Below, in pieces: positions 9,705-35,985 of a DNA stretch of 64,000 nt. The notes beneath the pieces are model-generated. The model was given only the letters and a program-made list of their open reading frames with translations. It had not been told where the DNA came from and searched no databases. This stretch comes from Nocardia sputorum (GTDB taxonomy: Bacteria; Actinomycetota; Actinomycetes; Mycobacteriales; Mycobacteriaceae): assembly GCF_027924405.1 (NCBI RefSeq), contig NZ_AP026978.1, positions 3,162,001 to 3,226,000 on the forward strand. Reading direction: 5' to 3'. Within the stretch, counting starts at the first letter, position 1. Each line of letters begins with the position of its first letter. The position numbers and the translations under genes are program-made.

Positions 9705-9707
9705 CGA

Positions 9708-13764: not shown

Positions 13765-13776
13765 GGTCGGTATCGA

Positions 13777-17714: not shown

Positions 17715-18275
17715 ATGTCGACTGGAGCATGGGTGATCATCGTCGTCATCGCCATAGTCGTCCTCGCGGCCCTTGTCGCGTTCCTGGTGGTACCGATGCT
17801 GCGCAGGCAGCGACTACGCCGCAGGTTCGGACCCGAGTACGACCGGACGGTCCAGGAACGTGATGACCGCAAGACCGCCGAGCGGGAACTCGCCGAACGC
17901 GAACGCAGGCATGCGCAGTTGCGCTTACGCGAACTGTCGGAGGACGAGAAGCGGGTCTATTCCACCCGTTGGGTAGAGGTGCAGGAACGATTCATCGATG
18001 ACCCCGCCGGGGCATTGACCGAAGCCGACCGCCTCGTCACCACGATCATGGCCGAGCGCGGCTATCCCACGGAGAACTACGAGCAGCAACTGGCGGATCT
18101 TTCCGTCGAGCATGCCGAGCCGTTGGGCCACTATCGCGCGGCGCACGACATCGCCACCCGCCCGGCGGGCAGCGCGGTGTCCACCGAGGACCGTCGCTCG
18201 GCGATCGTGCACTACCGGGAACTGTTTCAGGACTTGGTCGGCGTGTCCGGCCAAGAGAACAAGGACGTGAAGTAA
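17715..18275 (+). CDS. Membrane-anchored protein with a C-terminal helical domain, unknown function
   Basis: A 186-residue protein with one N-terminal transmembrane helix (about 5-28, WVIIVVIAIVVLAALVAFLV), a basic stop-transfer (RRQRLRRRF), a charged region rich in Glu/Arg that is likely coiled coil (45-75), and a C-terminal helical domain (about 80-180). That domain (RWVEVQERFIDDPAGALTEAD, ending HYRELFQDLVG) is clearly related to the C-terminus of the next gene. A strong AAGGAGG site precedes the ATG at 17715. The stop and the next start share one base (TAATG). I know this kind of protein only as conserved hypothetical in actinobacteria; the orientation puts the domain in the cytoplasm. 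Confidence 0.85.
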   Translation: MSTGAWVIIVVIAIVVLAALVAFLVVPMLRRQRLRRRFGPEYDRTVQERDDRKTAERELAERERRHAQLRLRELSEDEKRVYSTRWVEVQERFIDDPAGALTEADRLVTTIMAERGYPTENYEQQLADLSVEHAEPLGHYRAAHDIATRPAGSAVSTEDRRSAIVHYRELFQDLVGVSGQENKDVK

Positions 18276-18955
18276 TGAGCACCGAGTCCGAGCGGCGGAC
18301 CTACACCACTGACGCACAACGTGATTCGGCGAAGGCGGGCGAGACCCGCGCCGAGTCCGGATACGACCGGGCCGCCGAAACCGGCCGTGGTCCCGAAGTC
18401 GAGCCCGGCGCGGCCCGGCACGACGCCGAGCGTACGGCGAACCCGGAGTCGGTCGATCCGGCCGGGCGCGCACCGGCCACTGAGGAGACGCCCGTTCACG
18501 AGGTCGGCGAATCCGAACCCCTCGGCGAGCACGCTTCGGCAGGGCCGCGCGCGACAGGCGCCGAACGCCCCGACCACGTCGGCGACTCCGGGCACAGCGG
18601 CGTCGCGACGTCGGAGCAAGCGGTTCCCGCCGGCCCGGCGACCGGCTCCGGTGTCACCCCGTCCGCCGCCGCGGCGGAAGAGCAGCCTGTGCCGCTGTTC
18701 GCCGAAACCGATCGCGATCGCCTGCGCACGCAGTGGCGGGAGGTTCAGGTCACCTTCGTCGACAGCCCGCGCGACGCCGTCCACCGGGCGGACGAACTGC
18801 TCGACGACATCATCCACCAGCTGACCACCACCTACGAGCAGCGCAAACGCGAACTCGACGAGCGGCGCGGCGACACGTCCGACACCGAAGGTCTCCGGCA
18901 GGCGCTGCGCGGGTACCGGTCGTTCTTCGACCAGCTGCTCTCGATCGGCGGCTAG
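18275..18955 (+). CDS. Soluble partner with the same C-terminal domain, unknown function
   Basis: A 226-residue protein. Residues 1 to about 140 are low-complexity, rich in Ala, Glu, Pro, Gly and Thr, and probably disordered. From about 140 on (PLFAETDRDRLRTQWREVQV to the end GYRSFFDQLLSIGG) it carries the same helical domain as the preceding membrane-anchored protein, with the shared pattern W-x-EVQ-x-x-F-[IV]-D-x-P and a final YR-x-[FL]FxxL. Start and stop of the two genes overlap by one base, so they are made together and may pair through this domain. No catalytic motif is visible. Confidence 0.85.
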   Translation: MSTESERRTYTTDAQRDSAKAGETRAESGYDRAAETGRGPEVEPGAARHDAERTANPESVDPAGRAPATEETPVHEVGESEPLGEHASAGPRATGAERPDHVGDSGHSGVATSEQAVPAGPATGSGVTPSAAAAEEQPVPLFAETDRDRLRTQWREVQVTFVDSPRDAVHRADELLDDIIHQLTTTYEQRKRELDERRGDTSDTEGLRQALRGYRSFFDQLLSIGG

Positions 18956-18973
18956 CCGCGGAAGTTGTCGTCC

Positions 18974-19849
18974 ATGAGCGTCTTTCGAACGGCCGCCGGA
19001 ACGGTCGATCAAGCGGCGAACTGGGTCGCGCGGCAGGTGAAGGCGCGGGTTCCCACCGCCGACCCCGCCGATCGCGACCCCGGGTTCATCGCCGACACCA
19101 TGGACATCGGCTGGCTTCTGGTCCGCCTCTATTTCCGGGCGGAGGTCCGCGGCCTGGAACGAATACCCCCGGAGGGGCCGGTGTTGCTGGTCAGCAACCA
19201 CTCCGGGGGAAACGTGTCGCCGGAGGTCATGGTGACCACCCTGGCATTCGTCCGCCGTTTCGGCCCGGACCGGCCGTTCTTCCAGCTCGCCCACGACATG
19301 GTGATGGCCTACCCGGTGATCGGCTCGTTGCTGCGCCGCTTCGGCACGGTGAGCGCCGATCCGGGCAACGCCACGCAAGCGTTGCGCGCCGGCGCTGCGG
19401 TGCTGGTCTATCCCGGCGGTGACTGGGAGGTGCACCGCCCGACCTGGGAGGAGGATCGCGTCGATTTCGCCGGGCGCACCGGTTTCCTCCGCCTGGCCTG
19501 GAAGGAGCGGGTGCCGATCGTGCCGGTGGTGAACATCGGTGCGCAGCAGACCCAGCTGGTACTCACCCGTGGGGACCGGATCGCCCGCCTGCTGCGGCTG
19601 GACCGGATGCTGCGCCTGAAGGTGTTCCCGATCTCGATCGCCCTTCCCTGGGGACTGGACATCGGTGACCTCGCGGGACATCTGCCCCTGCCCAGCAAGA
19701 TCATCGTCGAGTTCCTGGACCCGATCGATCTGCGGGCCGAATTCGATGCCGAACTCGATGTCGAGGCGGCCTACGAGCACGTCACCGGAATAATGCAGGG
19801 CGCGCTGAGCAGGCTGGACGAGGAACGCGACCTGCCGATCGTCGGGTGA
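18974..19849 (+). CDS. Lysophospholipid acyltransferase (PlsC-like) family protein
   Basis: A 291-residue acyltransferase-like protein. The family's catalytic His sits in LLVSNHSGGNVSPE near residue 75; the acidic partner that is normally Asp (NHSGGxxxPD in related actinobacterial proteins) is Glu here. The second block is seen as LVYPGGDWEVHRP. There is no strong transmembrane helix; membrane association is expected through amphipathic regions. It would transfer an acyl chain to a glycerophospholipid or a related glycerolipid, but the acceptor cannot be told. It follows the two-gene unit by 18 nt on the same strand and is probably in the same operon. The ATG at 18974 was preferred over a TTG nine bases upstream. 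Confidence 0.8.
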   Translation: MSVFRTAAGTVDQAANWVARQVKARVPTADPADRDPGFIADTMDIGWLLVRLYFRAEVRGLERIPPEGPVLLVSNHSGGNVSPEVMVTTLAFVRRFGPDRPFFQLAHDMVMAYPVIGSLLRRFGTVSADPGNATQALRAGAAVLVYPGGDWEVHRPTWEEDRVDFAGRTGFLRLAWKERVPIVPVVNIGAQQTQLVLTRGDRIARLLRLDRMLRLKVFPISIALPWGLDIGDLAGHLPLPSKIIVEFLDPIDLRAEFDAELDVEAAYEHVTGIMQGALSRLDEERDLPIVG

Positions 19850-19939
19850 CCACGGGTGGCGGGGCAATTCCGGCCGCTACTCCGGATTTTCATGGTACCG
19901 TTCGTAACATATATCCCTTTCGTGTGATGGAGGTCTCCC

Positions 19940-21802
19940 ATGCGCGATGCGGCGCATGAAACGGTCGCATGGTTCGCCGCGCCGGGCGCAGAGGGCGGCG
20001 GAGCGGCGCTGGACCAAGTGGCGATCATGACCGGCGCCGCCGGGCTCGTCGCCCTCGTGTTGCTGTGGGTCGGCTATTTGCATCGCACCCGGCGGATCAC
20101 CTGGCTGCAGCGGCTCGCCGACCGCCTCGGGCGGCTGTTCAACCGCCCCGGCTGGGTGGCCCTGCCGCTCGCGATGTTCCTCGCGACAATCCTGACCGCC
20201 CTGTTGGGCTTCATCTGGGACGTCAGCCTGCACGTGGGCAACGGCCGGGACAACGGGCCGCTGGCCAATCCGGCGCACTACTTCATCCTGGCGGGCTTGT
20301 TCTTCTTGTTCACCGCGGGGATGTCGGCCATCGTGCTGCCACTGGACGAAAAGCCCGGCGCCGCGGCGGTGCGCATCACCCGCGGCTGGTACGCACCCGT
20401 CGGCGGCATCCTCATCGCGGGATCCGGCCTCTACGCTCTGATCGGCTTCCCGCTCGATGACGTCTGGCATCGGCTGTTCGGTCAGGACGTCACGCTCTGG
20501 GGGCCGACGCATCTGATGCTCATCGGCGGCGCCGGCCTGTCGCTGGTCGGTGTGCTGCTGCTCGAGTTCGAGGGCAGGCACAGCCGACCCGACCCGGACC
20601 GAGCCGACGGCAGACTGATGTGGCTGTTGCGGTCCTTCGCCTTCGGCGGCCTGCTCATCGGACTGTCGGTCTTCCAGGTGGAATACGACTTCGGAGTGCA
20701 GCAGTTCCGGCTCGTCCTGCAGCCGATGCTGATCGCCGCCGCGGCCTCCGTCTCCCTGGTCGCCGCTCGCGCCAGCCTGGGGCCGTTGAGCACCCTGGTG
20801 GTGGTGGGCTTCGCCGCCGCGGTCCGTGCGGTGGTGGCGGTGCTGGTCGGCGGCCCGATCATCGACGCGCCACGCAATGTCTTCCCGCTCTACCTGGGCT
20901 GCGCGATCGTGGTGGAACTGCTCGCGCTGCTGCCGCTCACCCGTCGACCCATCTGGTGGGGCGCGGTGTGCGGACTCGCGATCGCGACGGTCGGGCTGTG
21001 GCTCGAATCCCTCTGGGTTCGTGCGATGTTCGTCAATCCGTGGCCTGCGGCGATGTGGCCTGAACTGCTCGCGATGGCCGTCCCCACCGGTATCGCGGGC
21101 GGTGTCGTCGGCGCGCTGCTGGCCATGACGCTGCGCGGCGAACCGCTGCCGCGTCCGCCGGTGCGGCGCGGCTTGATGGTCGCCGCGGTCCTCGTCGTGG
21201 CGGCCACGACCGCCAACGGGCTGCTGATCGATGTTCCGGAGCAGGCCACCGCGACGGTCACGCTGCGCGACGCCGAGCCGGGGCCGGACGGCCGGATGGT
21301 GCTGGCGGACGTCCGCGTCACGCCCGCCGATCTCGTCGGCTCCGACCCCGAATGGATGCAGATCTTGTCCTGGCAGGGCGGAATCGGCTCCGACAGTCCG
21401 GGCCGGGGTCTGGTCGTCGACCACTTGCAGCGAGTGGGTCCCGGGCACTACGTCTCCACCGAACCCGTCCCGGCTCATGGCTCGTGGAAGACCGTCCTGC
21501 GTATGCAGGACGGGCGCGTCCTGACCGCAGCGCCGATCTTCATGGCCGCCGACCCCGGCATCGGTGTGGAAGAGGTCCCCGCACTCGCCTCGTTCACCCG
21601 CCCGTTCATCGGCGAGATCTCCGTGCTGCAGCGGGAACGCTCGTTCGATTACCCGTCCTGGCTGTTCGGCGCGGCATCGCTGGTCGTACTGGTGTGCAGC
21701 CTCGTCCTCGTCGGGGCGCTGTCCTGGGGCGCGGCGCGGATCGACGATCGGTATCCACGTGTGAGCCGTAGGACCGAGGCGGAACCGGCGGTTTCGCGAT
21801 GA
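19940..21802 (+). CDS. Large multi-pass membrane protein of unknown function
   Basis: A 620-residue polytopic protein. Roughly a dozen hydrophobic helices occupy residues 25-430, with conserved-looking polar loops containing DVSLHVGNGRDNGP, NPAHYFILAG and WGPTHLMLIGG, where buried His residues could bind a metal or haem. A beta-rich extracytoplasmic domain (about 440-570; VTLRDAEPG, WQGGIGSDSPGRG, GSWKTVLRMQDG) follows, and the chain ends with one more helix. It begins a four-gene unit in which every stop overlaps the next start. The partners are a 62-residue membrane peptide, a cupredoxin-like lipoprotein and another polytopic protein, which suggests one envelope complex dealing with metal or redox chemistry. 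I do not recognise a characterised homologue. Confidence 0.85.
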   Translation: MRDAAHETVAWFAAPGAEGGGAALDQVAIMTGAAGLVALVLLWVGYLHRTRRITWLQRLADRLGRLFNRPGWVALPLAMFLATILTALLGFIWDVSLHVGNGRDNGPLANPAHYFILAGLFFLFTAGMSAIVLPLDEKPGAAAVRITRGWYAPVGGILIAGSGLYALIGFPLDDVWHRLFGQDVTLWGPTHLMLIGGAGLSLVGVLLLEFEGRHSRPDPDRADGRLMWLLRSFAFGGLLIGLSVFQVEYDFGVQQFRLVLQPMLIAAAASVSLVAARASLGPLSTLVVVGFAAAVRAVVAVLVGGPIIDAPRNVFPLYLGCAIVVELLALLPLTRRPIWWGAVCGLAIATVGLWLESLWVRAMFVNPWPAAMWPELLAMAVPTGIAGGVVGALLAMTLRGEPLPRPPVRRGLMVAAVLVVAATTANGLLIDVPEQATATVTLRDAEPGPDGRMVLADVRVTPADLVGSDPEWMQILSWQGGIGSDSPGRGLVVDHLQRVGPGHYVSTEPVPAHGSWKTVLRMQDGRVLTAAPIFMAADPGIGVEEVPALASFTRPFIGEISVLQRERSFDYPSWLFGAASLVVLVCSLVLVGALSWGAARIDDRYPRVSRRTEAEPAVSR

Positions 21803-21987
21803 CCCGAGGCGCCGACGGCGTGGACGTGCTGGCCGATCATTCGATCCTGCTCGCTATACCGGCATTCCTGCCCGCCCTGGTCGTGGTCGCTGTCGTCGTT
21901 GTCGTCGCTCTGCGTGATCGTCGCGCCGAGGAGCGCGATCGGGCACCCGGTTCGCCGTCCGAGCACGGCGCGGAGAAGGAGGAATGA
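21799..21987 (+). CDS. Single-pass small membrane protein, 62 aa
   Basis: One transmembrane helix (about residues 15-40: LLAIPAFLPALVVVAVVVVV) and a short charged cytoplasmic tail (RDRRAEERDRAPG). It starts inside the stop codon of the 620-residue membrane protein (ATGA) and its stop overlaps the start of the lipoprotein gene. The size and position suggest a small structural subunit of the complex encoded by this operon. No family is recognised; the tight overlap at both ends is what supports it as real. Confidence 0.75.
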   Translation: MTRGADGVDVLADHSILLAIPAFLPALVVVAVVVVVALRDRRAEERDRAPGSPSEHGAEKEE

Positions 21988-22373
21988 TGGCGTCCGTGCG
22001 CCGCTGGGGCGCGCTCGTGCTGTTGAGTGGTCTGCTCGTGACCGGCTGCGCTGCCTCCGATCCCGCTACCGCCCCGTCGACGAGCGTGACGGCCGGAGAC
22101 TCGGACGCGCTCGTCGTCACCGTGCGGATCGCCGCAGGCTCGGTGACCCCGGCCGACGCCCGTCTGGAGACACGGGTGGGACGACCGATCGAGGTCGTTG
22201 TCGACAGCGACACCGATGACGAACTGCATGTCCATGCCGCGCCCGAGCACACCTTCGCGATCACCCCGGGCGCCGGCCAGCGGTTCCGTTTCGCCGTGGA
22301 CGTGCCAGGGCGGGTGGAGATCGAACTGCACCACGCCCGGCGCACGGTGGCGACGCTGCTCGTGCGCGGATGA
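21984..22373 (+). CDS. Cupredoxin-like lipoprotein
   Basis: A 129-residue exported lipoprotein. The signal peptide ends in the lipobox LLVTGC, with Cys at about position 22. The mature part is a single all-beta domain (about 45-129) with a cupredoxin-like pattern: VVVDSDTDDELHVHAAPEH, then a Gly-rich turn, FAVDVPGRVEIELHHA and a final VATLLVRG. The usual blue-copper Cys is absent; three or four His residues (HVHAAPEH, HH) could bind a metal instead. An AAGGAGG site precedes the ATG. Genes on both sides overlap it by 4 nt. A copper- or metal-binding role on the outer face of the membrane is inferred. Confidence 0.8.
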   Translation: MMASVRRWGALVLLSGLLVTGCAASDPATAPSTSVTAGDSDALVVTVRIAAGSVTPADARLETRVGRPIEVVVDSDTDDELHVHAAPEHTFAITPGAGQRFRFAVDVPGRVEIELHHARRTVATLLVRG

Positions 22374-23707
22374 CGGTTCTCGCCCACGGCATCGGCGGCG
22401 CCACCGACCTGCCGATTCCTCTGTCGTTCGCGCTCGTCGGCGCAGCCTGGGCCTTGACGTTCTCGTTCGCGGTGCTGGTGCTGGCCTGGCGTGAACCGCG
22501 GCTGGAGCCACGATCACCGGGATACGCGCTCCCGGCGCCGGTGCGGGCCGTCGTGGACGCCAGGGTGGTCCGGGCCGCGATTTCGGCGATCAGCGTGGCC
22601 GTCACCATCGCCGTCGTCGTGATCGGCCTCTTCGGTCCTTCCGACCCGGCGCGCAATCCCGTTCCCGGCGTCGTCTACATCTTCCTGTGGGTCGGAGTCA
22701 TGGTCGCCTCACTGGTCGCCGGACCCGTCTGGCGGGTGTTGTCCCCGGTGCGGGCGGTGCATCGCGCCGTCTGTCTGGTGTGGCGGCGTCAGCCCAGCCA
22801 CGGTTGGATCCGTTATCGCAGTTCTTGGGGGCAGTGGCCCGCGGTGCTGGGCCTGTTCTCGTTCGTATGGCTCGAACTCGCCTATCCGGAACCGGGTTCG
22901 GTCGCCGCGGTGACCACCTGGTTCGTGGCATACCTCGTCGTGAACACGACCGGACTGCTCGTGTGCGGCAGCATATGGGCCGAGCGCGCCGACCCGCTCG
23001 AGGTGTACAGCAGTCTGCTGGGCAGGCTGAGCCCGTTCGGACGTCGCGATACCGGCGAACTCGTGCTGCGATCGCCGTTGAACAACCTGGCGGGCACTCC
23101 CGCCCGGATCGGCGGGGTGGCCGTGGCCGCCACTCTGCTCGGCTCGACCGCGTTCGACAGCTTCACCACGTTTCCTTCATGGCGCGGGCTGCTGGCCGAC
23201 GCCGGGAGCAGCGGATCCGACGTCCTTCCCGCCCTGCTGAACACGGTGGGATTGCTGGGCTTCATCGTCGTCGTCGGGGGCGTCTTCCGCACCGCCGCCC
23301 GGGCGACCGGCGGCCTGCCCGAAGCCGAGCGCAGACGTCTTCCGGCTCGCCTCGCGCACAGCCTGACTCCGATCGTCGCTGGTTATCTGATCGCCCACTA
23401 CCTCACGTTCTTGGTCGAGAAAGGCCAGGCCACGGCGCTCCTGCTCGCCGATCCGCTCGGGCGGGGATGGAATCTCGCCGGTCTCGCCGACCGCGATGTC
23501 GCCTACATTCTGTCCACCCACCCCGCGGCACTGGGGACGATCAAGGTGCTGGCCGTGGTGATCGGGCACATCCTCGGCGTCGCCGCCGCGCACGACCGCT
23601 GCCTGCGACTGCTGCCGCCGGCACATCGGGTCACCGGCCAACTGGCTTTGATGCTGACCATGGTCGGTTTCACCTTCACCGGCCTCTACCTGCTGTTCGA
23701 GTCCTGA
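22370..23707 (+). CDS. Multi-pass membrane protein, last gene of the cupredoxin operon
   Basis: A 445-residue polytopic protein with about ten to twelve transmembrane helices. It starts MTVLAHGIGGATDLPIP and carries conserved-looking polar residues between helices, including GPVWRVLSPVRAV, SPLNNLAGTPARIGG and AHYLTFLVEKGQ. I recall similar actinobacterial proteins carrying the database name fenitrothion hydrolase, but nothing in the sequence looks like a hydrolase, so I leave the function open. It overlaps the lipoprotein gene by 4 nt. Its last codons (LYLLFES and stop) form part of a 26-bp sequence repeated 7.5 kb downstream, so its 3' end may be an insertion target. Confidence 0.82.
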   Translation: MTVLAHGIGGATDLPIPLSFALVGAAWALTFSFAVLVLAWREPRLEPRSPGYALPAPVRAVVDARVVRAAISAISVAVTIAVVVIGLFGPSDPARNPVPGVVYIFLWVGVMVASLVAGPVWRVLSPVRAVHRAVCLVWRRQPSHGWIRYRSSWGQWPAVLGLFSFVWLELAYPEPGSVAAVTTWFVAYLVVNTTGLLVCGSIWAERADPLEVYSSLLGRLSPFGRRDTGELVLRSPLNNLAGTPARIGGVAVAATLLGSTAFDSFTTFPSWRGLLADAGSSGSDVLPALLNTVGLLGFIVVVGGVFRTAARATGGLPEAERRRLPARLAHSLTPIVAGYLIAHYLTFLVEKGQATALLLADPLGRGWNLAGLADRDVAYILSTHPAALGTIKVLAVVIGHILGVAAAHDRCLRLLPPAHRVTGQLALMLTMVGFTFTGLYLLFES

Positions 23708-23710
23708 GGG
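23685..23710 (+). repeat. 26-bp direct repeat, left copy (gene 3' end)
   Basis: Perfect 26-nt sequence beginning TCTACCTGCTG and ending GTCCTGAGGG, identical to 31197-31222 and in the same orientation. It covers the last seven codons and stop of the membrane protein gene plus three bases. The similarity ends abruptly on both sides. A chance 26-nt match in 64 kb is very unlikely. Duplication of a gene 3' end at both borders of a block is the usual scar of site-specific integration. Confidence 0.85.
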
Positions 23711-23872
23711 GCCTGGCCAGTCAAGGCGACCAGTGCCTCGATGACGTCGAGCAAGCGCCAACGCCGCGTTCGCGCTGTGCAGATTGCGGGCACAGTGGAT
23801 GCCGCCGCTCGGCTCTGCGGATCGGCGGCGGATACAGTCCAGATCGATAGGGATCGCAGGAGGGTACCGCTG

Positions 23873-24172
23873 ATGTCCGTGAACATTCATCTCTCGCTGT
23901 ACGTCGAAAAGCTCTCCTCTCCAGCGGAGGCCGACGCCATCGAGGTGGCGGTGGAAAAGGTGTTGAAGGAGCACGGGATCGACCCGTGGACGGTGGTCAG
24001 CGTCTTTCACAACCCGCCCTGGGTGAAGGCAACCAGCGAGAACGGCCCGATCATCGTCCGCGGGTTCGGCGAGTGGAGCAAGATCTTCGAACGCGACGTC
24101 ACAAATGTCATTCGCGATATTGCGCCTGAAGCGGACATCGATCTCGAATGGGGTTATCCGGACGGGGACTGA
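23873..24172 (+). CDS. Hypothetical protein, 99 aa
   Basis: Small soluble protein starting MSVNIHLSLYVEKLSSPAEAD. A GCAGGAGG site precedes the ATG at 23873, which decides the start; the frame extends upstream but without coding character. The pattern is beta-alpha-beta (HLSLYVE, then helix AIEVAVEKVLKEHGI, then TVVSVFHNPP and GPIIVRGFGEW) with an acidic C-terminus. This resembles small ferredoxin-fold or stress-type proteins but matches no family I can name. It is the first gene inside the direct-repeat-bounded block. Confidence 0.7.
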   Translation: MSVNIHLSLYVEKLSSPAEADAIEVAVEKVLKEHGIDPWTVVSVFHNPPWVKATSENGPIIVRGFGEWSKIFERDVTNVIRDIAPEADIDLEWGYPDGD

Positions 24173-24174
24173 CC

Positions 24175-24640
24175 TGCTGGTTGAGCTTGCTGCGCCAACT
24201 CGGCTTCGAATTCGGATCGACTTGTGATCTCTTCCAAGATGGCGATGGGTTATCTCGGTGACTCCGGCGGGGCGGCCGCGCAGCCGATATCGGCACCACG
24301 CCGTTGTTGTTCAGAGCCTGCATGAGGGCGGTGATCGAACCGGGGTCCAGTTTCGACGGAGGTGGCGGGTTCGGCGTAATGGCGTCAGCGTTGCCCTGGG
24401 GTGGCGGTAGCGAGTCTCCGTCGGCTGGACAAGGGTCGCCGGGATCGCCACCATCCAGCAGACGACGTCCAGCAGCGAGAAGGACGGGACGCCGAAATCG
24501 TTGAGAATGTTGGTGATCGGCGCCGCCGTGTGTAGGAACCAACGCGGAATGCTCGCCGAGTTCGCGATCAACCATTTGCCTGTAGTCACCACCGCTGGCG
24601 CTTCGCGCGAAAACGCCGAGGTGCTTATCCGGCCACATCC
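24175..24640 (-). pseudogene. Decayed coding sequence, several frameshifts
   Basis: The minus strand holds protein-like segments in three successive frames. About 24590-24440 reads KWLIANSASIPRWF through FGVPSFSLLDVVCWMVAIPA. About 24440-24290, in another frame, reads SLPPPQGNADAITPNPPPP and SITALMQALNNNGVVPIS. A third frame at about 24245-24160 reads IAILEEITSRSEFEAELAQQ to a stop. Each looks like real protein (hydrophobic helix, Pro-rich linker, charged tail) and the order fits one gene read leftward. No intact start or frame remains. The segment boundaries are approximate and the parent family is not recognised. Confidence 0.4.
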
Positions 24641-25082
24641 GCACGGTGCCCCCGTGCTTCGATCCGCGGGCAATCGATGGAGTTCGACGAGCGCAACGTC
24701 GAGGTCGGCTACTGCGACGAGTCCGAAGGCGATCGTCGCCGAGCGTCTCCTCGGGACAGGTGGAGAACCGTAGTTGCGGCCATACGTAGTGCAGGCACTC
24801 CGGCTACCGATGTGTCTTTTCTACCTATCCCGGAATCCTCGGTTTGTCGGTGGTCGGCGGCTACGCCCAGCGGGATCGAGGGGTTCTCGCCGGGTGTGAT
24901 CGCCAACTGCGCCGCGGAACGCGCGGTGATGCCGGCGAAAAGACCCGGTCGGCACTCCATCGCCGGGTTCGGACGTTCGAAGGCCGGCCTTCGCGCTCGA
25001 GGGAGACCGGTGGAAAGGGTTGCCGTCGGTCGAGGCAGACGCTTGTCTGAGCCGGCCGACATGAACAGAAACGGTGTCTGCG
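24641..25082. other. Gene-poor stretch inside the island
   Basis: About 440 nt where no frame on either strand looks like a real protein by composition or motif, and codon bias is not consistent in any frame. It follows the decayed sequence to its left and fits degraded DNA. A faint protein-like run on the minus strand (FAGITARSAAQLAITPGENPS) near 24900 is too short to call. Confidence 0.4.
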
Positions 25083-25397
25083 ATGACCGACGTACTGCCC
25101 CTTGCCTACGGGTACCTGCGCGACGATTTGCTCGGCGAACGCGACGCGGCAGAAGACACATTACGCGCTGCCGCGAACGCGCTCGGCTACGAGCTGGGAA
25201 CGGTGTTCCACGAGCCACGGTGCGGGAGCGAGGGGCTGCCGCCGGCGTTCGTCGATCTGCTCGCCGAATGTCGGCGGGCAGCCGCGGAGGCGGTGATCAC
25301 ACCGCAGGGCCATCTGTCGGAGACAGTATTCCGAACCGTCTTGCAGTCGGCCCTGACAGCGCGTGGCGAGTTGGTCGTACACGAGGTCGGCTCCTGA
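25083..25397 (+). CDS. Small protein resembling the start of a serine recombinase, 104 aa
   Basis: A protein beginning MTDVLPLAYGYLRDDLLGERD. The AYGYLR start and the helical AEDTLRAAANALGYELGTVF that follows recall the N-terminal strand and helix of serine recombinases (family YxRVSxxxQ). The catalytic Ser-containing motif is absent and the chain ends after about 100 residues, so it is not an active recombinase. ATG at 25083 was taken; GTG at 25074 is also possible. Its stop overlaps the next start as TGATG, so it is coupled to a second small gene. The function is unknown. Confidence 0.6.
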   Translation: MTDVLPLAYGYLRDDLLGERDAAEDTLRAAANALGYELGTVFHEPRCGSEGLPPAFVDLLAECRRAAAEAVITPQGHLSETVFRTVLQSALTARGELVVHEVGS

Positions 25398-25651
25398 TGT
25401 CGAACGGACCCGACAGGATCTGCCGCCCCGCTTCGGCGGGGTCCACCTGCCCGTCGCCCGCCGCGCCCGCAGCGGCGAAGCCCACCCCCGCCGCAGGTTC
25501 GAAAGCCACGCTGCGCTCATACCCCGAATTCACATCGTCGGATTCCGGTCCGGACCCGGGTCGGTGCCTGACTCCCGCCGATTGGAGAGCGGTGGCCGGT
25601 TGGCTCGATCCGGGCCGCACTCCGCTCGAGGGTTGGATGGGGGCGGAGTGA
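25397..25651 (+). CDS. Hypothetical protein, 84 aa, coupled to the preceding gene
   Basis: It starts in the TGATG overlap with the preceding stop. The first half is low-complexity and rich in Pro, Ala and Ser (SPAAPAAAKPTPAAG). The second half (RCLTPADWRAVAGWLDPGRTPLEGWMGAE) is Trp-rich and more protein-like. The coupling is the main reason to list it. No family is recognised. Confidence 0.4.
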   Translation: MSNGPDRICRPASAGSTCPSPAAPAAAKPTPAAGSKATLRSYPEFTSSDSGPDPGRCLTPADWRAVAGWLDPGRTPLEGWMGAE

Positions 25652-25807
25652 CCGGTTCCGCGTGCTTCCGTATCACCGCTCGACGGTATTGAAGATCGAA
25701 ATACGAAGGTGAGCGAGTCGCAGATATGCGAGTAGAGGAAGCGAGGGACGTCCGCGTATTCAGCTGGAGTGCTATTGGCGCCACTCGTCGCCGGTTGGGC
25801 GCCCGCA

Positions 25808-27199
25808 ATGGCTGAGTCAGGGATCCCACCGGCGTCGGGTTCGGTCTGGCCGGTCGGTCATGCTGTGGCGTTGCTGCGAGATCCGCTGGCGTTTTTGTCG
25901 TCTCTGGCCGATGCCGGCGATGAACTCGTGAAGATACGAATCGGTCCTGGGGCCGCGGTCGTGGTCTGTGACCCGGACATTGCCGATCGAGTCCTTCGTG
26001 ACGATCGTACTTTCGACAAGGGTGGCCCATTATTCGACATAGCGCGAAAAGTGGTGGGTGACAACGTGATAACCTGCCCGCACAGTATGCATCGTCGGCA
26101 GCGACATTTGATCCAGCCGACGTTCAGTCGCTCCCGGCTCGAAAACTACGGCCGAGCGATGACGGCCGAGGCCGATGCCATGACCGCTGCTTGGAGCGAC
26201 GGTCAGGTCGTGGATATGTTGGCCGAGGCATTGCGCCTGGCTACTCAAACGGTGATGGCGACTATGTTCTCCGGTGCGCTCGCGCCGCACGTCCGCGATC
26301 GGGCATTGGACGATGTCGCGGTTATCGTCAACGGGCTGTACCGACAGATGCTGTCGCCGCCACTGCTGAATCGGCTACCGACTCCCGGGAATCGCCGGTA
26401 TGGGCGAGCGCACGCAAGTCTCCGCGAGTTGATGACGGCAATCGTCGCCGAACGGCGGATCGATGACACCGACCACGGGGACCTGATTTCGGCCATGCTC
26501 GCGGCCCGAGTCCCCACCGAGACGACCACAACCACCCGCATCAGCGTCGGCATGACCGACAGCCAGATCTGCGATCAGCTCATGTCCTTCTTCATCGCCG
26601 GATCAGAGACCACCGCCAGCGCGCTGGCCTGGGCATTACATCTGCTCGTGGCTCATCCCGACATCGAGGAACGTCTGCACAAGGAAACGGACCGGGTGCT
26701 CCACGGGGCTCCGGCTCGCTACCGGGACCTGCCCGACCTGCCGCTGACGGGGCACATCATCGCCGAAGCATTACGGCTCTATCCCCCCGGCTGGTTGTTC
26801 ACCAGAACAGTCACGGCCGATACGCGACTGGGCAGCTACGACCTTCCCGCCGGAACCTCTCTGGTGTACAGCCCTTACCTCCTGCACCGGCGCAACGATC
26901 TCTATCAGCACCCGAATCGCTTCGATCCCGACCGATGGGACACCACGCAGCCGCCGGTCCCGCGGAAGGCGTTCATGGCATTCGGCGCCGGACCGCGGCG
27001 ATGCGTCGGCGAGGCCTTCGCTCTCACCGAACTGTCCCTGGCACTGGCCACGATCGCCAGTCGGTGGCGGATACGCCATCGCGTCGGCAAACGGGTCCGT
27101 CCTGCGGTGGCGATGGCCCTGCATCCTCGCGAACTGCGGATACGTATCCAGTCAGCCAGTCGGGGCGTTGCTCGGCCGTCAGCAGAAGGTGACCGATGA
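25808..27199 (+). CDS. Cytochrome P450, terpene-cluster type
   Basis: A 463-residue haem monooxygenase. The oxygen-activation helix reads FIAGSETTASALAW, the ExxR motif is EALRLYPP, the haem loop is FMAFGAGPRRCVG with Cys399 as iron ligand, and the PERF-like region is RFDPDRW. The overall pattern (SETT, LRLYPPGWLFTR, DLPAGTSLVYSPYLLHR) is like bacterial P450s that oxidise sesquiterpenes, such as the CYP170 and CYP183 groups. Its stop overlaps the terpene synthase start by 4 nt, so it very likely oxidises that enzyme's product. No ferredoxin or reductase is nearby. ATG at 25808 was chosen by family length; GTG at 25769 is possible. Codons such as ATA and CGA are more common than in neighbouring genes. 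Confidence 0.93.
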   Translation: MAESGIPPASGSVWPVGHAVALLRDPLAFLSSLADAGDELVKIRIGPGAAVVVCDPDIADRVLRDDRTFDKGGPLFDIARKVVGDNVITCPHSMHRRQRHLIQPTFSRSRLENYGRAMTAEADAMTAAWSDGQVVDMLAEALRLATQTVMATMFSGALAPHVRDRALDDVAVIVNGLYRQMLSPPLLNRLPTPGNRRYGRAHASLRELMTAIVAERRIDDTDHGDLISAMLAARVPTETTTTTRISVGMTDSQICDQLMSFFIAGSETTASALAWALHLLVAHPDIEERLHKETDRVLHGAPARYRDLPDLPLTGHIIAEALRLYPPGWLFTRTVTADTRLGSYDLPAGTSLVYSPYLLHRRNDLYQHPNRFDPDRWDTTQPPVPRKAFMAFGAGPRRCVGEAFALTELSLALATIASRWRIRHRVGKRVRPAVAMALHPRELRIRIQSASRGVARPSAEGDR

Positions 27200-28236
27200 A
27201 AGTTCCCGAACAGCCTGCTCTGCCCGGGATCTTCTGCCCGATCGAATCGAACATCCATCCCGCAGTCGGCACGATGGAAAACCGGTCGATCGGTTGGTTG
27301 AGGGCCGGCGGGTTCCTCGATGATCCCCACCAGGGACGCGCACTGGTCGCGACCAGATCGGCCGAGTTCATGGCGAGGATGGCACCCCACGGCTGCGTCG
27401 ATCGACTGCAGATCGCTTCGGACTGGGCCTACTGGGGGTTCGCGTTCGACGATCGCTTCGACCGTGGTCCGCTGTCGAAGGATCTCGGTGGGTTCGTGTC
27501 CTATGCCAACAAGCTCGTGCGCGTGCTGGAGGCGCCCGGCTCGGAATTGGCGCAGGCAGACCCGCTCGTGCGAGGGCTCATCGATATCTCGACACGGTTC
27601 GCCGGCCGTGTGACACCGGTTCAGCATCGTCGATGGATCCAGGCCCACCGTGCCTGGCTGTTCGGAGTCTGCGCCGAGATGAGTACGACCACGACGCCGA
27701 GCGTCGACGAGTATCTCGCCATCCGGATCAACAACGCGGCAGGCGAGGTCGTCACCGTCATCACAGAACTGGTGAACGAGTACGAACCTCCCGCGGCAGA
27801 GTTGGAGCTGCCTCGGGTCCGGGCACTGACCGAGATGACACGTGTGCTCGCGGCACTGGACAACGACCTACACTCCCACCCCAAGACAGTGGCTTTGAAC
27901 GAAAGCAACCAATACAACCTGCTGACGGTGATCGCAGCGCGCCATGCCTGCGGGCCGGACGAGACCATCGCCCGAGCCGTGCGGTTGCGCGACCGGATCA
28001 TGTGCCGGTTCCTCCTCGCCGGAGCACAGACCCGCGGGCTGAGCAGAGACACCCGTCACTATCTCCACGGTCTACGGCACGTGATCCGCGGAAACCTCGA
28101 TTGGGCGCTCGACGTGGAACGGTACAAAGTAGACGGTCGAACCGTGGCGGACCGTTTCACCATCAACGATTCACCTACCGATTCATCAGCCGAAGCCCCA
28201 GGAATGTCATCGATCAACTGGTGGTGGCAGGTATGA
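27196..28236 (+). CDS. Class I terpene synthase (terpene cyclase)
   Basis: A 346-residue cyclase that ionises a prenyl diphosphate, most likely farnesyl diphosphate, and cyclises the carbocation. The first metal-binding motif is complete: DDRFD at 85-89 in GFAFDDRFDRG. The second (NSE) motif reads Asn223-Asp224-Leu-His-Ser227-His-Pro-Lys230, followed by Thr where Glu is usual. The late Arg-Tyr pair that senses diphosphate is visible as VERYK. The C-terminal arm ends INWWWQV. It is coupled to the P450 by a 4-nt overlap. The product skeleton cannot be predicted from sequence by eye; the sequence does not carry the two-domain signature of geosmin synthase. Confidence 0.93.
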   Translation: MKVPEQPALPGIFCPIESNIHPAVGTMENRSIGWLRAGGFLDDPHQGRALVATRSAEFMARMAPHGCVDRLQIASDWAYWGFAFDDRFDRGPLSKDLGGFVSYANKLVRVLEAPGSELAQADPLVRGLIDISTRFAGRVTPVQHRRWIQAHRAWLFGVCAEMSTTTTPSVDEYLAIRINNAAGEVVTVITELVNEYEPPAAELELPRVRALTEMTRVLAALDNDLHSHPKTVALNESNQYNLLTVIAARHACGPDETIARAVRLRDRIMCRFLLAGAQTRGLSRDTRHYLHGLRHVIRGNLDWALDVERYKVDGRTVADRFTINDSPTDSSAEAPGMSSINWWWQV

Positions 28237-28265
28237 CGCGAGGCGATTCGTGCAGGGCGTCCATG

Positions 28266-28355
28266 CGGCAGCGCGTCCGCGCGAGCTGACCGGATGTGCA
28301 GAAAGTAGATGTTCTCGCCATCGATCTCAGTGGTGAACTGCGGGTAGGCGTTCAA
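28266..28355 (-). pseudogene. Remnant of an epoxide hydrolase N-terminal domain
   Basis: Thirty codons on the minus strand read LNAYPQFTTEIDGENIYFLH and then IRSARADALP. This matches residues 68-97 of the intact epoxide hydrolase at 38934-40070 (LNSFPQFRTEIDGHDVHFIH, VRSAEPDALP) at about 20 of 30 positions. The alpha/beta-hydrolase core that should follow is missing, and the frame continues as unrelated sequence. It lies in the gap between the terpene synthase and the convergent LuxR-type gene, and fits debris left by deletion or insertion. Nothing else is seen in 28237-28423. Confidence 0.75.
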
Positions 28356-28423
28356 GCGATGGCCGGATCCGGCGGTGGCCAGATGGCTTCGCCACCGAGC
28401 GTGACGCGGACTTTCGCCGGGGA

Positions 28424-30988
28424 TCAGAGACGAGGATTCGAACGGCCGCGCTGTGGCCTGCGCGCGGCTTCGGCGCTCACGTGGGCTTGTCGATCGGCCG
28501 GTACGAAAGAGCGGATAGCTGCTCGGGAGCTGATCATCAATTTGTGAAGTACAGCGGCCATTTGCGCGTCGACAGTCTTGTAGGAACTGCCGCGTCGGGC
28601 AGCGATGGCCGTGTTGGTCCACCCCGCCGCGGCGAGTACGGCGACCTCCTGCTCGGCCTCCGACAGCTGGGGCCACGGTGAGGGGCGGCTACGCCGGACC
28701 GGATGCTCGACGGGCAGCTTGTCCATGGACAGGCTCCCCAGTGCCAGTTGCGCCACTTCGTCCAACTCCGGCCGCAACAGGGCACCCTCTCGTTCGGCCT
28801 CCGCGAAGGCGTCGTCCCCCAATATCTTCCGGGCGGTGTCTGCGGCGAGTTCGGTCTCGGTGGCGAACGGGCCGAGGTGGGCGATATCCACGCCTAGCCC
28901 TGCACGAAGCGTGGCCCCGCCGCCGAGCAGGCGTGCGATATCACGCGCCTGTGCCGTCACGGCTGCGGACGGTTCATCGCCGACGGCGCCGACCATGCGA
29001 GCCAGGGTCCATGCCAGCATGTGCACGGCCCATACCGCGCCCCACCGGTCGCGCATCGCGAGCTGTTCCGATAATGTCGCGCGTCCCAGGGCAAGCGCCT
29101 CGTCCATGTCGCCGTGCTTACTCGCCGCGATCACCCATGCCAGCTTCGCCCAGCAGATCGCCCATTGGGCCCCCGAACGCTCGGCATTGCCGAGGTGGAC
29201 GCGGCAAGTTTCCAACGCTTGTTCGGCTGTGCCGAAGAACGCGGCGGCCAGCGCTTCGAACAATTCGCTCATCGCGGCACCGCCCCCGTCACTCTCGGCG
29301 GCGAAACGCGCCCGCGCCCGGGCCAGGACGTCGATCGCCCGCGTATCGCAGCGAATCAGCATCAATTCCGCACCTCGGGCGAATTCGACCGCAGCGGGGA
29401 GCCCGAGGTCCACGTCGGGTTCCTCGCGCCAGCGCAATCGGTCTGCGCCGCCGGGCACGCAGCGGGCGACGCATTCGTCGAGCAGGTGTTCGGCATCATG
29501 GTGCACCCCCTGGCACATACTGATCCAGGCAATCAGTGACATCGCCACGACCTGCAGCGGTACCGGCTCGGGATCGAGGTCCCGGGTTGCCGCGAGCGCG
29601 CGCTCAGCCCACCGGCGCGGTTCCCGCAGTGAGCCGGTAAAGAACGGTATGCGCAAGGCGATCAGCCCGGCGGCGATCTCGAGTCCGACCGCCGCCTCGC
29701 CCGGCGTGGCGATACTGCTCTCCATGGCCGACAGCAGGTTGTCCCAAGCGGCCCGCGCCCAATCGAGCAGCGCCTGCTCGTCGGGCCCGAACCAACCGGC
29801 ACGGGCCGCAGCCACCTTGTCGCGGTAGTAGCGGCGGTGCCTGCGCGCCAGCCGCTCGGCTTCCGCACCGTGGTCCCGGAGGCGTTGCTGGGCGAAGAGG
29901 CGAATGGTTTCGGCCATCGAATAACGCACCGTGGTCTCGGTCAAGTGGATCGAGACCAAGGACTGATCCACCAACCGGACCAGCAGGCCTTCGATCTCGG
30001 CCCGGGCCAATCCGTCCGCACGGCCGGGTTCGTCGTCGGCGCAGACCGCTTCGATGGCTTCCAACTCGGCGCCGACATCCTGTCCGGCCGCGTCGGGGCT
30101 GTCGCTGCCGATGTCGTACCCGGCCGCGAACACCGACAGGCGGTCGAACAGCAGCCGTTCCTTGTCCCGGCAGAGGTCATAGGACCAAGCGATGACATCG
30201 CGGATGCCACGATGCCGGACGTCCGCTCCGACTCTGGGTCCGTTCTGCCACTGCAAGCGCCGGTCGCCCGCCGCACCGCTGAGGTCACGCAGAATCAGGG
30301 GCAGCGGCTGACGGGACAGTCGGGCGGCCGCCAGCCGGATATAGAGCGGGTGATTGTGTACATGCCGGCAGATCGCTGAGGCCAGGTCCTTTTCCTCGTC
30401 GGCGAGGGTATGCCCGACAAGGTCGGCGCGGGAGCGGAATAAAGCAAGCGCCTGTTCATGCGATAGCGCGGGCACCGGCACCAGTTGCTCGTCGACCCAC
30501 CCGATCGCCTCGCGGCTGGTGGCCAGCACGGTGAGCCCGGGTACCGCGTCGAGTAGGCCGGCTATCACAGCGCCCGCGCCGTCGAGCACATGTTCGCAGT
30601 TGTCCATGACCAGGATCGTCTGCACATTCCGCCCGGCTGCGTCGCGGCGGCGCAGCGTGTCCAGTACGGCGTCCCATGCCGACCTTCCGGAGAAATCGGC
30701 CTCGATCACCGAGCCCGCGATCTGTTCCTCCACTGCTGTCGCCTCCGCGCCCCGAGGCAGTACTGCCAGCCGTACCCAGTGCACCGGGACGCGCCGCGCC
30801 CGTTGGAAGCGCTGCACAGCCTCGGTCGCCAATCGGGTCTTTCCGATGCCACCCGCACCGATCAACGTCACCAGGCGAGTACCGCCCAGCAACGCCAGCC
30901 CGATTCTCTCCAGCTCCCGATCGCGGCCCACGAAATCGTTGGCCGCCGCCGGCGGCAATCCGCTGACAGAAGTTCGTCCTGCCGACAC
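28424..30988 (-). CDS. LuxR-family regulator with N-terminal NB-ARC-type ATPase (LAL-like)
   Basis: An 854-residue regulator. An N-terminal ATPase domain (about 15-300) has Walker A GAGGIGKT at 44-51 and Walker B ILVMDNCEH with Asp129. The long middle is helical and TPR-like (about 330-750). The LuxR-type helix-turn-helix is at the C-terminus (about 770-825: LSEAEQEVAVLAAAGWTNTAIAA). The HTH is degenerate compared with the usual LTxRExEVLxLIAxGxSNxEIA. It converges on the terpene synthase gene and is the last gene before the right 26-bp repeat, so it may be the island's own regulator. The inducer is unknown. Confidence 0.88.
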   Translation of the reverse strand: MSAGRTSVSGLPPAAANDFVGRDRELERIGLALLGGTRLVTLIGAGGIGKTRLATEAVQRFQRARRVPVHWVRLAVLPRGAEATAVEEQIAGSVIEADFSGRSAWDAVLDTLRRRDAAGRNVQTILVMDNCEHVLDGAGAVIAGLLDAVPGLTVLATSREAIGWVDEQLVPVPALSHEQALALFRSRADLVGHTLADEEKDLASAICRHVHNHPLYIRLAAARLSRQPLPLILRDLSGAAGDRRLQWQNGPRVGADVRHRGIRDVIAWSYDLCRDKERLLFDRLSVFAAGYDIGSDSPDAAGQDVGAELEAIEAVCADDEPGRADGLARAEIEGLLVRLVDQSLVSIHLTETTVRYSMAETIRLFAQQRLRDHGAEAERLARRHRRYYRDKVAAARAGWFGPDEQALLDWARAAWDNLLSAMESSIATPGEAAVGLEIAAGLIALRIPFFTGSLREPRRWAERALAATRDLDPEPVPLQVVAMSLIAWISMCQGVHHDAEHLLDECVARCVPGGADRLRWREEPDVDLGLPAAVEFARGAELMLIRCDTRAIDVLARARARFAAESDGGGAAMSELFEALAAAFFGTAEQALETCRVHLGNAERSGAQWAICWAKLAWVIAASKHGDMDEALALGRATLSEQLAMRDRWGAVWAVHMLAWTLARMVGAVGDEPSAAVTAQARDIARLLGGGATLRAGLGVDIAHLGPFATETELAADTARKILGDDAFAEAEREGALLRPELDEVAQLALGSLSMDKLPVEHPVRRSRPSPWPQLSEAEQEVAVLAAAGWTNTAIAARRGSSYKTVDAQMAAVLHKLMISSRAAIRSFVPADRQAHVSAEAARRPQRGRSNPRL

Positions 30989-31196
30989 ACAGGCAGCCTA
31001 GCGGAACCAGGAATCGACGGTCCCGGGTGAGAATACGATTCCGGTACGGACGCTGGGTGTAGCGCGATCGTCGTCCCTTGTCCTGGGGAACCGGCGCTTT
31101 GGTGGCCGCCGTGCGGCCGGGCAGCAGCCCCTGGCGTGAGGTGTCAGAACGGTGGTAGAGCGCCTGGCGGGTTGCGAGTTCGCTACGGAAAGGTGT

Positions 31197-31222
31197 TCTA
31201 CCTGCTGTTCGAGTCCTGAGGG
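31197..31222 (+). repeat. 26-bp direct repeat, right copy
   Basis: Identical, in the same orientation, to 23685-23710, which is the 3' end of the 445-residue membrane protein gene. Here it stands in the gene-free stretch 30989-31322, where I see no other feature. No other part of the membrane protein gene is present upstream of it. Together the two copies bound a 7.5-kb block holding the P450-terpene synthase pair, decayed fragments and the LuxR regulator. Confidence 0.85.
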
Positions 31223-31322
31223 TTCTGCGGGATCCGCTGCGGCGCAGCGCAATCCGTGCCGAAATCTGCTGGACGGAATGACAGCGGCCGGAACAATACG
31301 GCGCTCGGAGGTGGTGTCGGTT

Positions 31323-32351
31323 CTATGGGTGATCGGATCGGCGCCAGGGGCGTAACTCGATGAGCGAGCGCGAGCGAGCCGGTACGACGGAGCTGATCTG
31401 CAAGGAGGCCGACTCGGCCAGTTCGCGCAGCTGGTCGAGGGTGCGTTCCCGGCCACGGACGTAGCAGAGCATTCGCAGGTCTCCCTCGGTGTCGAGTGCG
31501 TTTCCGTCGACAGCGCCGATGTGGTCGAGGACCAGTACCCTTCCGGTCTCCGCGGCCGCCTCGGCGCAGCATCGCAAGATCCGGGCGGCAGCGTCGTCGT
31601 CCCAGTCGTGCAGGATGCCCGAGAGCAGATAGCCACCCGCTCCCGCGGGAAGGGGATCGAAAAAGCTGCCGACCTGCGCGCGGGCTCGATGGGCCAGCCC
31701 GGCGGAGGCGATGGCCTGTTCGGCGCGTGCCACCGGGCCGGGCAGATCGAGGACTGTCCCACGCAGTTCGCCATGGGCGCGCAGGATGGCGATCAGCAAG
31801 TCGGCGGCGCCGCCACCCACGTCGACGAGGTGACCGAGCGCGCCCCATGGGTAGGCCGCGGCCACCACGGGCGCGTCCTCCACCAGGCGGGCCCCCATCA
31901 GCGCGTCGAACGACGCGCCCCGCACGGAGTCCGCCGACAGATCGTCCCAGAACGTCCGGCCGAACTGGCGCGGGAAAGCGGGCTCACCGGTGCGAACGGT
32001 GTGCAACAGCTGGACGAAGCATAGATCGGCGCGGCCGATGGCGCCGTCGAGATCGATCCAGCGTCGCACTCCTTCCGGATCATCGTCGCGCAGGCGCTCA
32101 CCCAACGCCGTCAAGCCGTACTTGCCGGTGCTCGCACGAAACAGCACTCCGGCGGTCACCAGATGGTCGAGGAGGCGGCCCAGCGCGTCCCGGTCCGCAT
32201 CCACCGCCGCGGCCAGCGCACCCGTGGTCTGTCTCCCCGCGGCGATGTGGTCGGCGAGCCGCAACGTCGCCGCCACCCGGATCGCCATCGGGGTCACGAG
32301 GTCGGCTGCAGCCCACAGCGCCCCACCCCATTCGACCGACTCCTCCGCCAT
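31323..32351 (-). CDS. SAM-dependent O-methyltransferase (plant-type family 2)
   Basis: A 342-residue methyltransferase. The N-terminal dimerisation/winged-helix region (about 15-110) reads like other actinobacterial O-methyltransferases (ATLRLADHIAAGRQT, LDHLVTAGVLFRA). The SAM-binding motif is LVDVGGGAADLL near residue 180, and the catalytic-type HDWDD (GILHDWDDDAAARIL) follows about 75 residues later. Such enzymes methylate hydroxyls of secondary metabolites. A GAGGAG site precedes the ATG at 32351. It follows devS by 46 nt on the same strand and may be read through from it. It lies just outside the terpene island's right repeat, so a role in tailoring the terpene is possible but not shown. 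Confidence 0.85.
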   Translation of the reverse strand: MAEESVEWGGALWAAADLVTPMAIRVAATLRLADHIAAGRQTTGALAAAVDADRDALGRLLDHLVTAGVLFRASTGKYGLTALGERLRDDDPEGVRRWIDLDGAIGRADLCFVQLLHTVRTGEPAFPRQFGRTFWDDLSADSVRGASFDALMGARLVEDAPVVAAAYPWGALGHLVDVGGGAADLLIAILRAHGELRGTVLDLPGPVARAEQAIASAGLAHRARAQVGSFFDPLPAGAGGYLLSGILHDWDDDAAARILRCCAEAAAETGRVLVLDHIGAVDGNALDTEGDLRMLCYVRGRERTLDQLRELAESASLQISSVVPARSRSLIELRPWRRSDHP

Positions 32352-32397
32352 GGCGTCTCCTCGCTCGACGACAGCTGGTCCTGACTGGGCTTCGCGG

Positions 32398-34972
<2,575 letters not shown>

Positions 34973-35035
34973 CGAGTGTCCAATCCGGGAGCAGGTGTGG
35001 AGTCGACACTACGTACCGGGCGGGTCGCCCGGTAC

Positions 35036-35047
35036 GGACCAAAGTCC
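35036..35047 (-). promoter_or_regulatory. DosR-box-like palindrome upstream of devR
   Basis: GGACC-AA-AGTCC-type sequence (GGACCAAAGTCC), matching the core of the established DosR consensus GGGACTWWAGTCCC at about 12 of 14 positions when flanks are included. It lies 64 nt upstream of the devR start, between devR and the DUF2267 gene. Confidence 0.6.
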
Positions 35048-35164
35048 TTTCCCGCGCCCGCCGCGGGTTCGCGCGGGCGTGGTCACCTTACCGGCGCGAA
35101 GCCGCGGAGAGCTGGACGTGCGGCGCGCCGGGGACGCCGTCGGACCGAGACCGGCAGCGATCGG

Positions 35165-35821
35165 TCAGGGCGTCGTCGCGTCGGAGCGGGTGAGTCCTTC
35201 TCCGATGAGGATCCGGTGGACTTGCTGGGCGGCCGATACCTGCGCGGAGTCGGGTGGCGCGCCACCGGAAAGTCCTTCGAGGCTGTGCGCCAGGACCGCC
35301 ACCGCGTCGGTGAGTGCCTGGAGCCGGGCGTCGACCTCGTCGAGACGAGAAGATTCCGGTTGCGTGACCGGCGCCGCGTCCTGCAACGTCCCCGCGAGGT
35401 CGCTTCCGCGCAGCACCGCGCGCAGATCCTCCGGCAGCAGCGCGAACACGTGATCGAGTTGCCCGGGCGAGAACAGATCGGCCAGCGCATCGGTCACCGC
35501 GCCGGCCAGGGCGTAGGCCTCGTCCCGGGACACGCCCGCTTCCCGCGCGAACTGATCGAGGAACGAGGGCACGTCGTGCGCGACGGGCACGTGCGCGGGC
35601 ACCCAGCCCTCGTAGAAGATCCCGCGCAGCAGTTCGGGCAGCTGGGCGCTCAGGTGCGCGGCCGCGTTGACGCCGATGCGGTCACGCACGGTGTGCAGCC
35701 ACGCCCGTAGGGCACGGTGCGCGAACGCCCGGTCTTCGGTGGCGAGTCCGTCGCTCAAAGTGCGCAGCCACTCGTGCGCGGTGTGCACCGCGGGTGCGAG
35801 AGGGTCGCGGTGGTAGCTCAT
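35165..35821 (-). CDS. DUF2267-family protein
   Basis: A 218-residue soluble helical protein. Two repeats of the DUF2267 pattern are visible: residues 10-75 (ALRAWLHTVRDRIGVNAAAHLSAQLPELLRGIFYEGW) and 85-145 (EAYALAGAVTDALADLFSPG and LDHVFALLPEDLRAVL). A Gln/Ser/Ala-rich helical tail follows. The biochemical role of the family is not known to me; in actinobacteria it is often found among stress and DosR-regulon-like genes, which fits its place between devR and the nitroreductases. A DosR-box-like site lies 93 nt upstream. Confidence 0.85.
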   Translation of the reverse strand: MSYHRDPLAPAVHTAHEWLRTLSDGLATEDRAFAHRALRAWLHTVRDRIGVNAAAHLSAQLPELLRGIFYEGWVPAHVPVAHDVPSFLDQFAREAGVSRDEAYALAGAVTDALADLFSPGQLDHVFALLPEDLRAVLRGSDLAGTLQDAAPVTQPESSRLDEVDARLQALTDAVAVLAHSLEGLSGGAPPDSAQVSAAQQVHRILIGEGLTRSDATTP

Positions 35822-35913
35822 GACGTGTGCCTTTCACGGATGGATCGCGGTTGATATCGACGAGACTTCTCGTCCGGCCCCGGACCGGTGAGAGGCGTCG
35901 TACCCGCACCGAC

Positions 35914-35927
35914 GGGACCATGGTCAC
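35914..35927 (-). promoter_or_regulatory. DosR-box-like site upstream of the DUF2267 gene
   Basis: GGGACCATGGTCAC at 35914-35927 matches about 11 of 14 core positions of the DosR consensus, allowing C for T at the sixth position. It is 93 nt upstream of the DUF2267 start and outside any coding sequence, which makes chance less likely than for sites inside genes. Confidence 0.5.
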
Positions 35928-35985
35928 ACCGAGGCCGATCACGTCGGCGCGGGCCTTGCCGGGTACCGCCGCAGTGGCAGCGGGT

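Follow-up and report, generated by a model that had tools for sequence, protein, structure and literature searches.

Remains of a putative integrative element at the 3′ end of a membrane-protein gene in Nocardia sputorum

The stretch of Nocardia sputorum DNA analysed here (64,000 nt, hereafter the window) carries a block of about 7.5 kb, with a cytochrome P450 and a terpene synthase gene, that is bounded by two copies of a 26 bp sequence. The left copy covers the 3′ end of a membrane-protein gene, and the question is how the block came to lie behind this gene. A first-pass annotation had proposed site-specific integration into the gene end, by an element that may be degraded or mobilised in trans. 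The repeat on which this rested is confirmed: TCTACCTGCTGTTCGAGTCCTGAGGG occurs at 23685–23710 and 31197–31222, both on the forward strand, with 26 of 26 positions identical and the two copies starting 7512 bp apart. The genome has these two copies, and no third was found at up to three mismatches in the 7,431,165 bases searched; 100 shuffles of the window yielded no such 26 bp repeat. A comparison of the membrane gene with the DNA downstream found nothing alike beyond these 26 bp, so that the absence of other similarity around the copies is also borne out.

The block had been described as unlike its surroundings, and this holds for its composition as well as for the decayed pieces it contains. 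Its GC content (0.654) is lower than that of both flanks (0.688 and 0.685), and a value at or below this is reached by 0.6% of the window's 7.5 kb stretches. The GC3 values of the P450, terpene synthase and LuxR genes are 0.72–0.78, against 0.83–0.88 in the five neighbouring genes measured. The positions of genes and borders are collected in Table 1.

Table 1. Features of the block and its borders (positions in the window)
Feature	Position	Strand	Remarks
Membrane-protein gene, 445 aa	22370..23707	+	ORF; 3′ end is the proposed attB
Left 26 bp copy	23685..23710	+	exact match
Tyrosine-integrase 3′ end remnant	23709..23756	-	41/48 bases, abuts left copy
99 aa gene	23873..24172	+	without Pfam or NCBIfam family
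Decayed reversed fragments of 1182 aa gene	24306..24516	-	98% over 85 and 87% over 94 bases
Terpene cassette	24779..31027	.	matches N. niwae (G082 C15), other locus
107 aa ORF	25074..25397	+	without Pfam or NCBIfam family
Cytochrome P450	25769..27199	+	PF00067, E 1.7e-74
Terpene synthase	27196..28236	+	PF19086, E 6.5e-28
Epoxide hydrolase scrap	28209..28394	-	45% over 66 residues, E 5e-12
AAA-LuxR type regulator, 854 aa	28424..30988	-	PF13191 and PF00196
Right half of integrase-family end site	31172..31198	+	element arm GTGTTCTA at 31193–31200
Right 26 bp copy, proposed attR	31197..31222	+	exact match
O-methyltransferase gene	31323..32351	-	PF00891; right neighbour in empty sites

Pfam matches uphold the P450, the terpene synthase and the AAA-LuxR regulator named by the first-pass annotation. 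The partial epoxide hydrolase is present too, but its placement needed correction, as the scrap lies antisense between the synthase and the regulator; it resembles a protein with an EHN domain from genome G122. No Pfam or NCBIfam family was matched by the membrane-protein gene. The 1182 aa ORF from which the reversed fragments near the left border derive is open elsewhere in the same genome. Since the best NCBIfam models for the P450 (pentalenene oxygenase) and for the synthase both fall below their cut-offs, no product is claimed. By sequence comparison, the solved chains nearest to the synthase are SVS variants, a label that we take to mean spiroviolene synthase. No replication or transfer genes were found among the five island ORFs scanned, the smaller ORFs being only partly covered, and no PF00589 match that would indicate an intact integrase gene lies nearby at E 1e-6.

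The membrane gene was matched in 76 of 150 Nocardia genomes. The annotation had proposed looking for strains in which this gene is followed by the methyltransferase gene with one repeat copy, and such an arrangement occurs in N. niwae (G082), the nearest relative found, whose membrane protein is 92% identical. Window positions 18000–23710 (90.9% identity) and 31199–35954 (89.2%) are contiguous in that genome, joined through a single repeat copy in which 4 of 26 positions differ; about 110 bp separate the two genes, and the flank beyond the right copy runs on as in N. niwae. The same two genes are about 180 bp apart in N. gamkensis (G059) and N. exalbida (G052).

Elsewhere, the spot behind the membrane gene varies between species. 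Between the two genes, N. araoensis (G015) and N. beijingensis (G026) have about 1.7 kb with a long ORF, read as a carboxylesterase, and N. arthritidis (G017) has 6.9 kb. An ORF at the spot in N. arthritidis (L103, reverse strand 8113–10125) reads as an NAD-dependent DNA ligase. N. asiatica (G019) carries other DNA there, including an ABC-transporter-like ORF, and lacks a methyltransferase orthologue at this spot. The Pfam scan of these loci names families, not the ORFs bearing them; it covers 55 of the 154 ORFs near the gene end at 15 loci and, out of 59 families, the 25 most frequent, so that an integrase could have escaped it. A PF00589 search of 12 genomes gave no match within 20 kb of the membrane gene on its contig at E 1e-6.

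No repeat of at least 14 bp covering the gene end was found at 49 named loci, some of which have little downstream DNA, and among 13 relatives only G122 showed a flanking repeat, of 20 bp. The G122 repeat was considered as a second integration and rejected, since its second copy trails a 131 bp piece of the gene (94% identity) and so belongs to a longer duplication. That piece and the 20 bp copy of the gene's 3′ end (L104, reverse strand 7153–7298) are found 2.8 kb past the intact gene, following an ORF that has TetR and epoxide-hydrolase domains. That indels leave repeats as a general habit was considered and rejected. Nine large clean indels relative to N. niwae were tested, including the island (the comparison set aside indels shorter than about 300 bp and three breaks that were larger or not clean), and all eight others lack a border match longer than 10 bp, against 26 bp at the island. 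One 6.5 kb segment of the window that is missing from N. niwae (11037–17516) has no border repeat.

The 48 bp directly following the left copy match the antisense 3′ end of an N. araoensis integrase gene at 41 of 48 bases (E 1e-11 against a 3 kb stretch). Of 15 residues 13 agree, and the alignment scores 34, where 2000 shuffles reached no more than 17. This was one of many weak matches and was singled out by the adjoining PF00589 match; tblastn with ten members of the family did not detect it at E 0.01. The earlier statement that no integrase remains is not quite right: the island has no integrase gene, but this 3′ remnant abuts the left copy. In the left copy the native site is intact, and truncated integrase codons come straight after it. 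Relative to N. abscessus G002, about 140 bp are absent here, comprising the integrase tail and the family's end site (described below). The ten best relatives of the integrase retain the tail (HPL...), and none of the best 120 ends as if reading through the left repeat. Because the tail and end site are lacking and the gene has kept its own end intact, the left border is not a clean attL; a second event or an unusual attP would be needed to account for it.

The N. araoensis integrase belongs to the PF00589 family, and 90 of 148 Nocardia genomes have a match to its own integrase family at E 1e-8. The best 120 of at least 2548 proteins, drawn from at most 8000 candidates, include relatives from Saccharopolyspora, Amycolatopsis, Crossiella, Actinoplanes and Nocardia. 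In the phage and plasmid collections, tblastn gave no match to the family at 1e-5. At 15 of 30 family loci, a stretch of about 45–50 bp behind the stop codon, recognised by eye, ends in GTGT plus 1–2 bases (the end site); the other 15 have no such stretch. Alignments of family loci end near the end-site terminus. A weight matrix was built from 11 end sites, leaving out four more diverged ones, and scores these members at 46–61; its background reaches 19.3 in real DNA, against at most 8.6 and 11.7 in random sequence. At one family locus, the arms flank an 8 bp spacer (GTGTCCTA-ACCGTCGA-TAGGACAC). No flanking repeat longer than 13 bp was found at 14 family loci within the sequence examined. A candidate second end was seen at only one of 13 loci (G002), 7.65 kb off, with 2 mismatches in 16 positions and no equal in 794,092 control bases. 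That the end site has a conserved base-paired fold was not supported, none of the three predicted pairs being changed on both sides, and therefore no integron-like reading is claimed. At three family loci (L269, L270 and L283) a small gene of 182–187 aa overlaps the start of the integrase gene; in L269, where N. araoensis has an intact family integrase at 11268–12362, and in L270 its product shows similarity to MazE/AbrB, below the cut-off.

In members of the abscessus group, this end site lies at the 3′ end of the membrane gene itself. It is complete in G125 (score 52.5) and in N. abscessus G001 (52.1) and G002 (48.3). A decayed integrase remnant follows it in G125 (residues 256–356, E 2e-6) and in G002 (residues 320–356, 73%, E 4e-10), while none was found in G001 by tblastn (50 targets, including one positive control). 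The junction in G125 reads GGTCTCTA-CCTGTTGT-TAGAACAC, with diverged forms in G001, G002 and G019. All four relatives thus have an element arm attached at this gene end, the junction of G019 being decayed. A search for the junction pattern at one mismatch was uninformative: it hit 127 of 150 genomes, and many of the hits look like coding sequence for VFDxxLES, an effect that a control with the reversed pattern leaves uncorrected.

At the right border of the island, TTGCGAGTTCGCTACGGAAAGGTGTTC directly precedes the repeat copy. Its score against the right half of the matrix (16.4) is the best in the window on either strand, and none of 792,896 control positions in Nocardia DNA is as high; with the GTGTT columns removed, one of 793,126 control positions equals it. 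Two unrelated positions in 46 named loci reach about 16, and the strength of this match therefore lies in its immediate contact with the repeat copy. No left half of the end site can be recognised here. Read as arm, overlap and arm, the right junction is GTGTTCTA-CCTGCTGT-TCGAGTCC, the counterpart of the junction that the abscessus group has at the same native site. This native site would then be GGCCTCTA-CCTGCTGT-TCGAGTCC at 23681–23704 (within the left copy and the four bases before it), probably divided 8-8-8. In their make-up of host arm and element arm, the right border fits this scheme and the left border does not.

A different attachment had been suggested by the resemblance of part of the repeat to a tRNA T-arm, which might have been used by a tRNA-type integrase. 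This was not borne out: ARAGORN predicts no tRNA anywhere in the 64,000 nt, a third copy of the repeat is lacking, and the T-arm-like letters (GTTCGAGTCC) are codons of the conserved C-terminus LFES. N. bovistercoris and N. transvalensis, too, have CTCTTCGAGTCC at the end of the membrane gene, with no repeat flanking it.

The reading we favour, with a probability of roughly three in four, is that a tyrosine integrase inserted a small integrative element at the membrane gene's 3′ end and that the block is what is left of it. As far as sequence comparison can tell, site-specific integration at the gene end is well supported, because integrase marks occur at both borders and relatives share the same joining point; the earlier proposal gains from these as well as from the empty site in N. 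niwae. In the event envisaged, a tyrosine integrase would have recombined the site of the element with the gene end, consisting of host arm GGCCTCTA, overlap CCTGCTGT and host arm TCGAGTCC, to give the right junction. On this reading, the repeat begins at TCTA because the element arm and the host arm share those four bases. On the left, either the integrase tail and end site would have been lost and the native gene end restored, in a second exchange that could have used the GGG at the junction, or the incoming element would already have had a variant site. Deletion of the integrase body would then have left the terpene cassette, native to the clade, and decayed scraps. Several observations weigh against this model: the left copy is an intact native site and not host arm, overlap and element arm; flanking repeats and second ends are scarce at the family loci; none of the 49 named loci has a repeat of at least 14 bp over the gene end; the right-half score lies near two background positions; and the left remnant was missed by tblastn. 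A bare direct repeat becomes a testable attachment site, with arms, a short overlap and an integrase family that has intact members in related genomes.

Other histories would account for parts of this picture. The integration may predate the split from N. niwae, which would then have shed the block, either in a precise excision or when the repeats recombined, the cassette having moved; N. niwae does carry the cassette at another locus, diverged to the same degree as the core, and has one copy left at its gene end. We regard this as unlikely, as N. gamkensis and N. exalbida likewise have the membrane gene next to the methyltransferase gene, and the right copy, though unconstrained by coding, equals the left, which suggests a younger event. 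Still less probable is repair of a double-strand break in which long single-stranded ends were filled in and joined to loose chromosomal pieces, duplicating 26 bp with no integrase at all. Such repair would suit an insert made up of pieces that lie apart in N. niwae, but it leaves unexplained the integrase-family sequence at both borders, and the eight other large clean indels have no such repeat. That the gap between the convergent genes merely tolerates insertions, the repeat being incidental, seems very improbable: different ORFs do occupy the spot in other species, yet an exact 26 bp match 7.5 kb apart is not due to chance, and it coincides with the integrase-family borders.

With integration by a tyrosine integrase as the favoured reading, the kind of element is already known. 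SGI1 at trmE is a reported example of the genomic islands that tyrosine integrases insert at gene 3′ ends (PMC8409611), and such islands likewise leave the target gene intact, have direct repeats at their borders and have empty sites in relatives. They differ from the present case, in which 48 bp remain of the integrase, the target gene encodes a membrane protein of no known family and a clean attL is lacking on the left. GInt islands are outlined as carrying a ginABCD operon with three integrases (PMC5385486). They share with this island a tyrosine recombinase, flanking repeats, cargo mostly from related bacteria and the capture of biosynthesis clusters; unlike them, the island has no integrase gene, and the integrase family described here shows one integrase, with a small overlapping gene in L269, L270 and L283. 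Actinobacterial integrative conjugative elements, as sketched in PMC3218068, also insert into the chromosome at specific sites by means of an integrase, whereas the island ORFs scanned include no replication or transfer genes. The literature searched, mostly listings and abstract openings, gave no recognisable description of this site, integrase family or end site. The family, without a match in the phage and plasmid collections searched, merits its own description.

The cargo is native to the clade. Positions 24779–28250 and 28386–31027 lie together at another locus of N. niwae, with 89.7% and 92.5% identity, which resembles that of the core (90.9% and 89.2% in the flanks); a recent import of foreign DNA is not supported, and the island is a patchwork of clade-native DNA. 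The cassette has other addresses again in G058, G095, G019 and G133. In G058 and G095 the regulator is inverted relative to the P450-synthase pair (28424–31011; L111, L112), with breakpoints at gene borders; in G019 the regulator is shortened, and in G133 none adjoins. That close species carry an ordinarily diverged terpene cassette at differing addresses is relevant to the movement of biosynthetic clusters within the genus. It is conceivable, though doubtful, that the chromosomal multi-copy integrase family serves many loci as a common engine, carrying individual genes and small cassettes such as the terpene cassette from one gene end to another, and so causes the gene-by-gene shuffling of accessory DNA seen among Nocardia species. 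A unit of about 360–377 bp with the 99 aa gene (23818–24193; L204, L205, L206, L207) recurs in other surroundings in G082 and G019, at 90–93% identity, and also in G106 and G125; only the last two are alike around it. The neighbours of the N. niwae copy of this unit are scattered across the N. sputorum genome.
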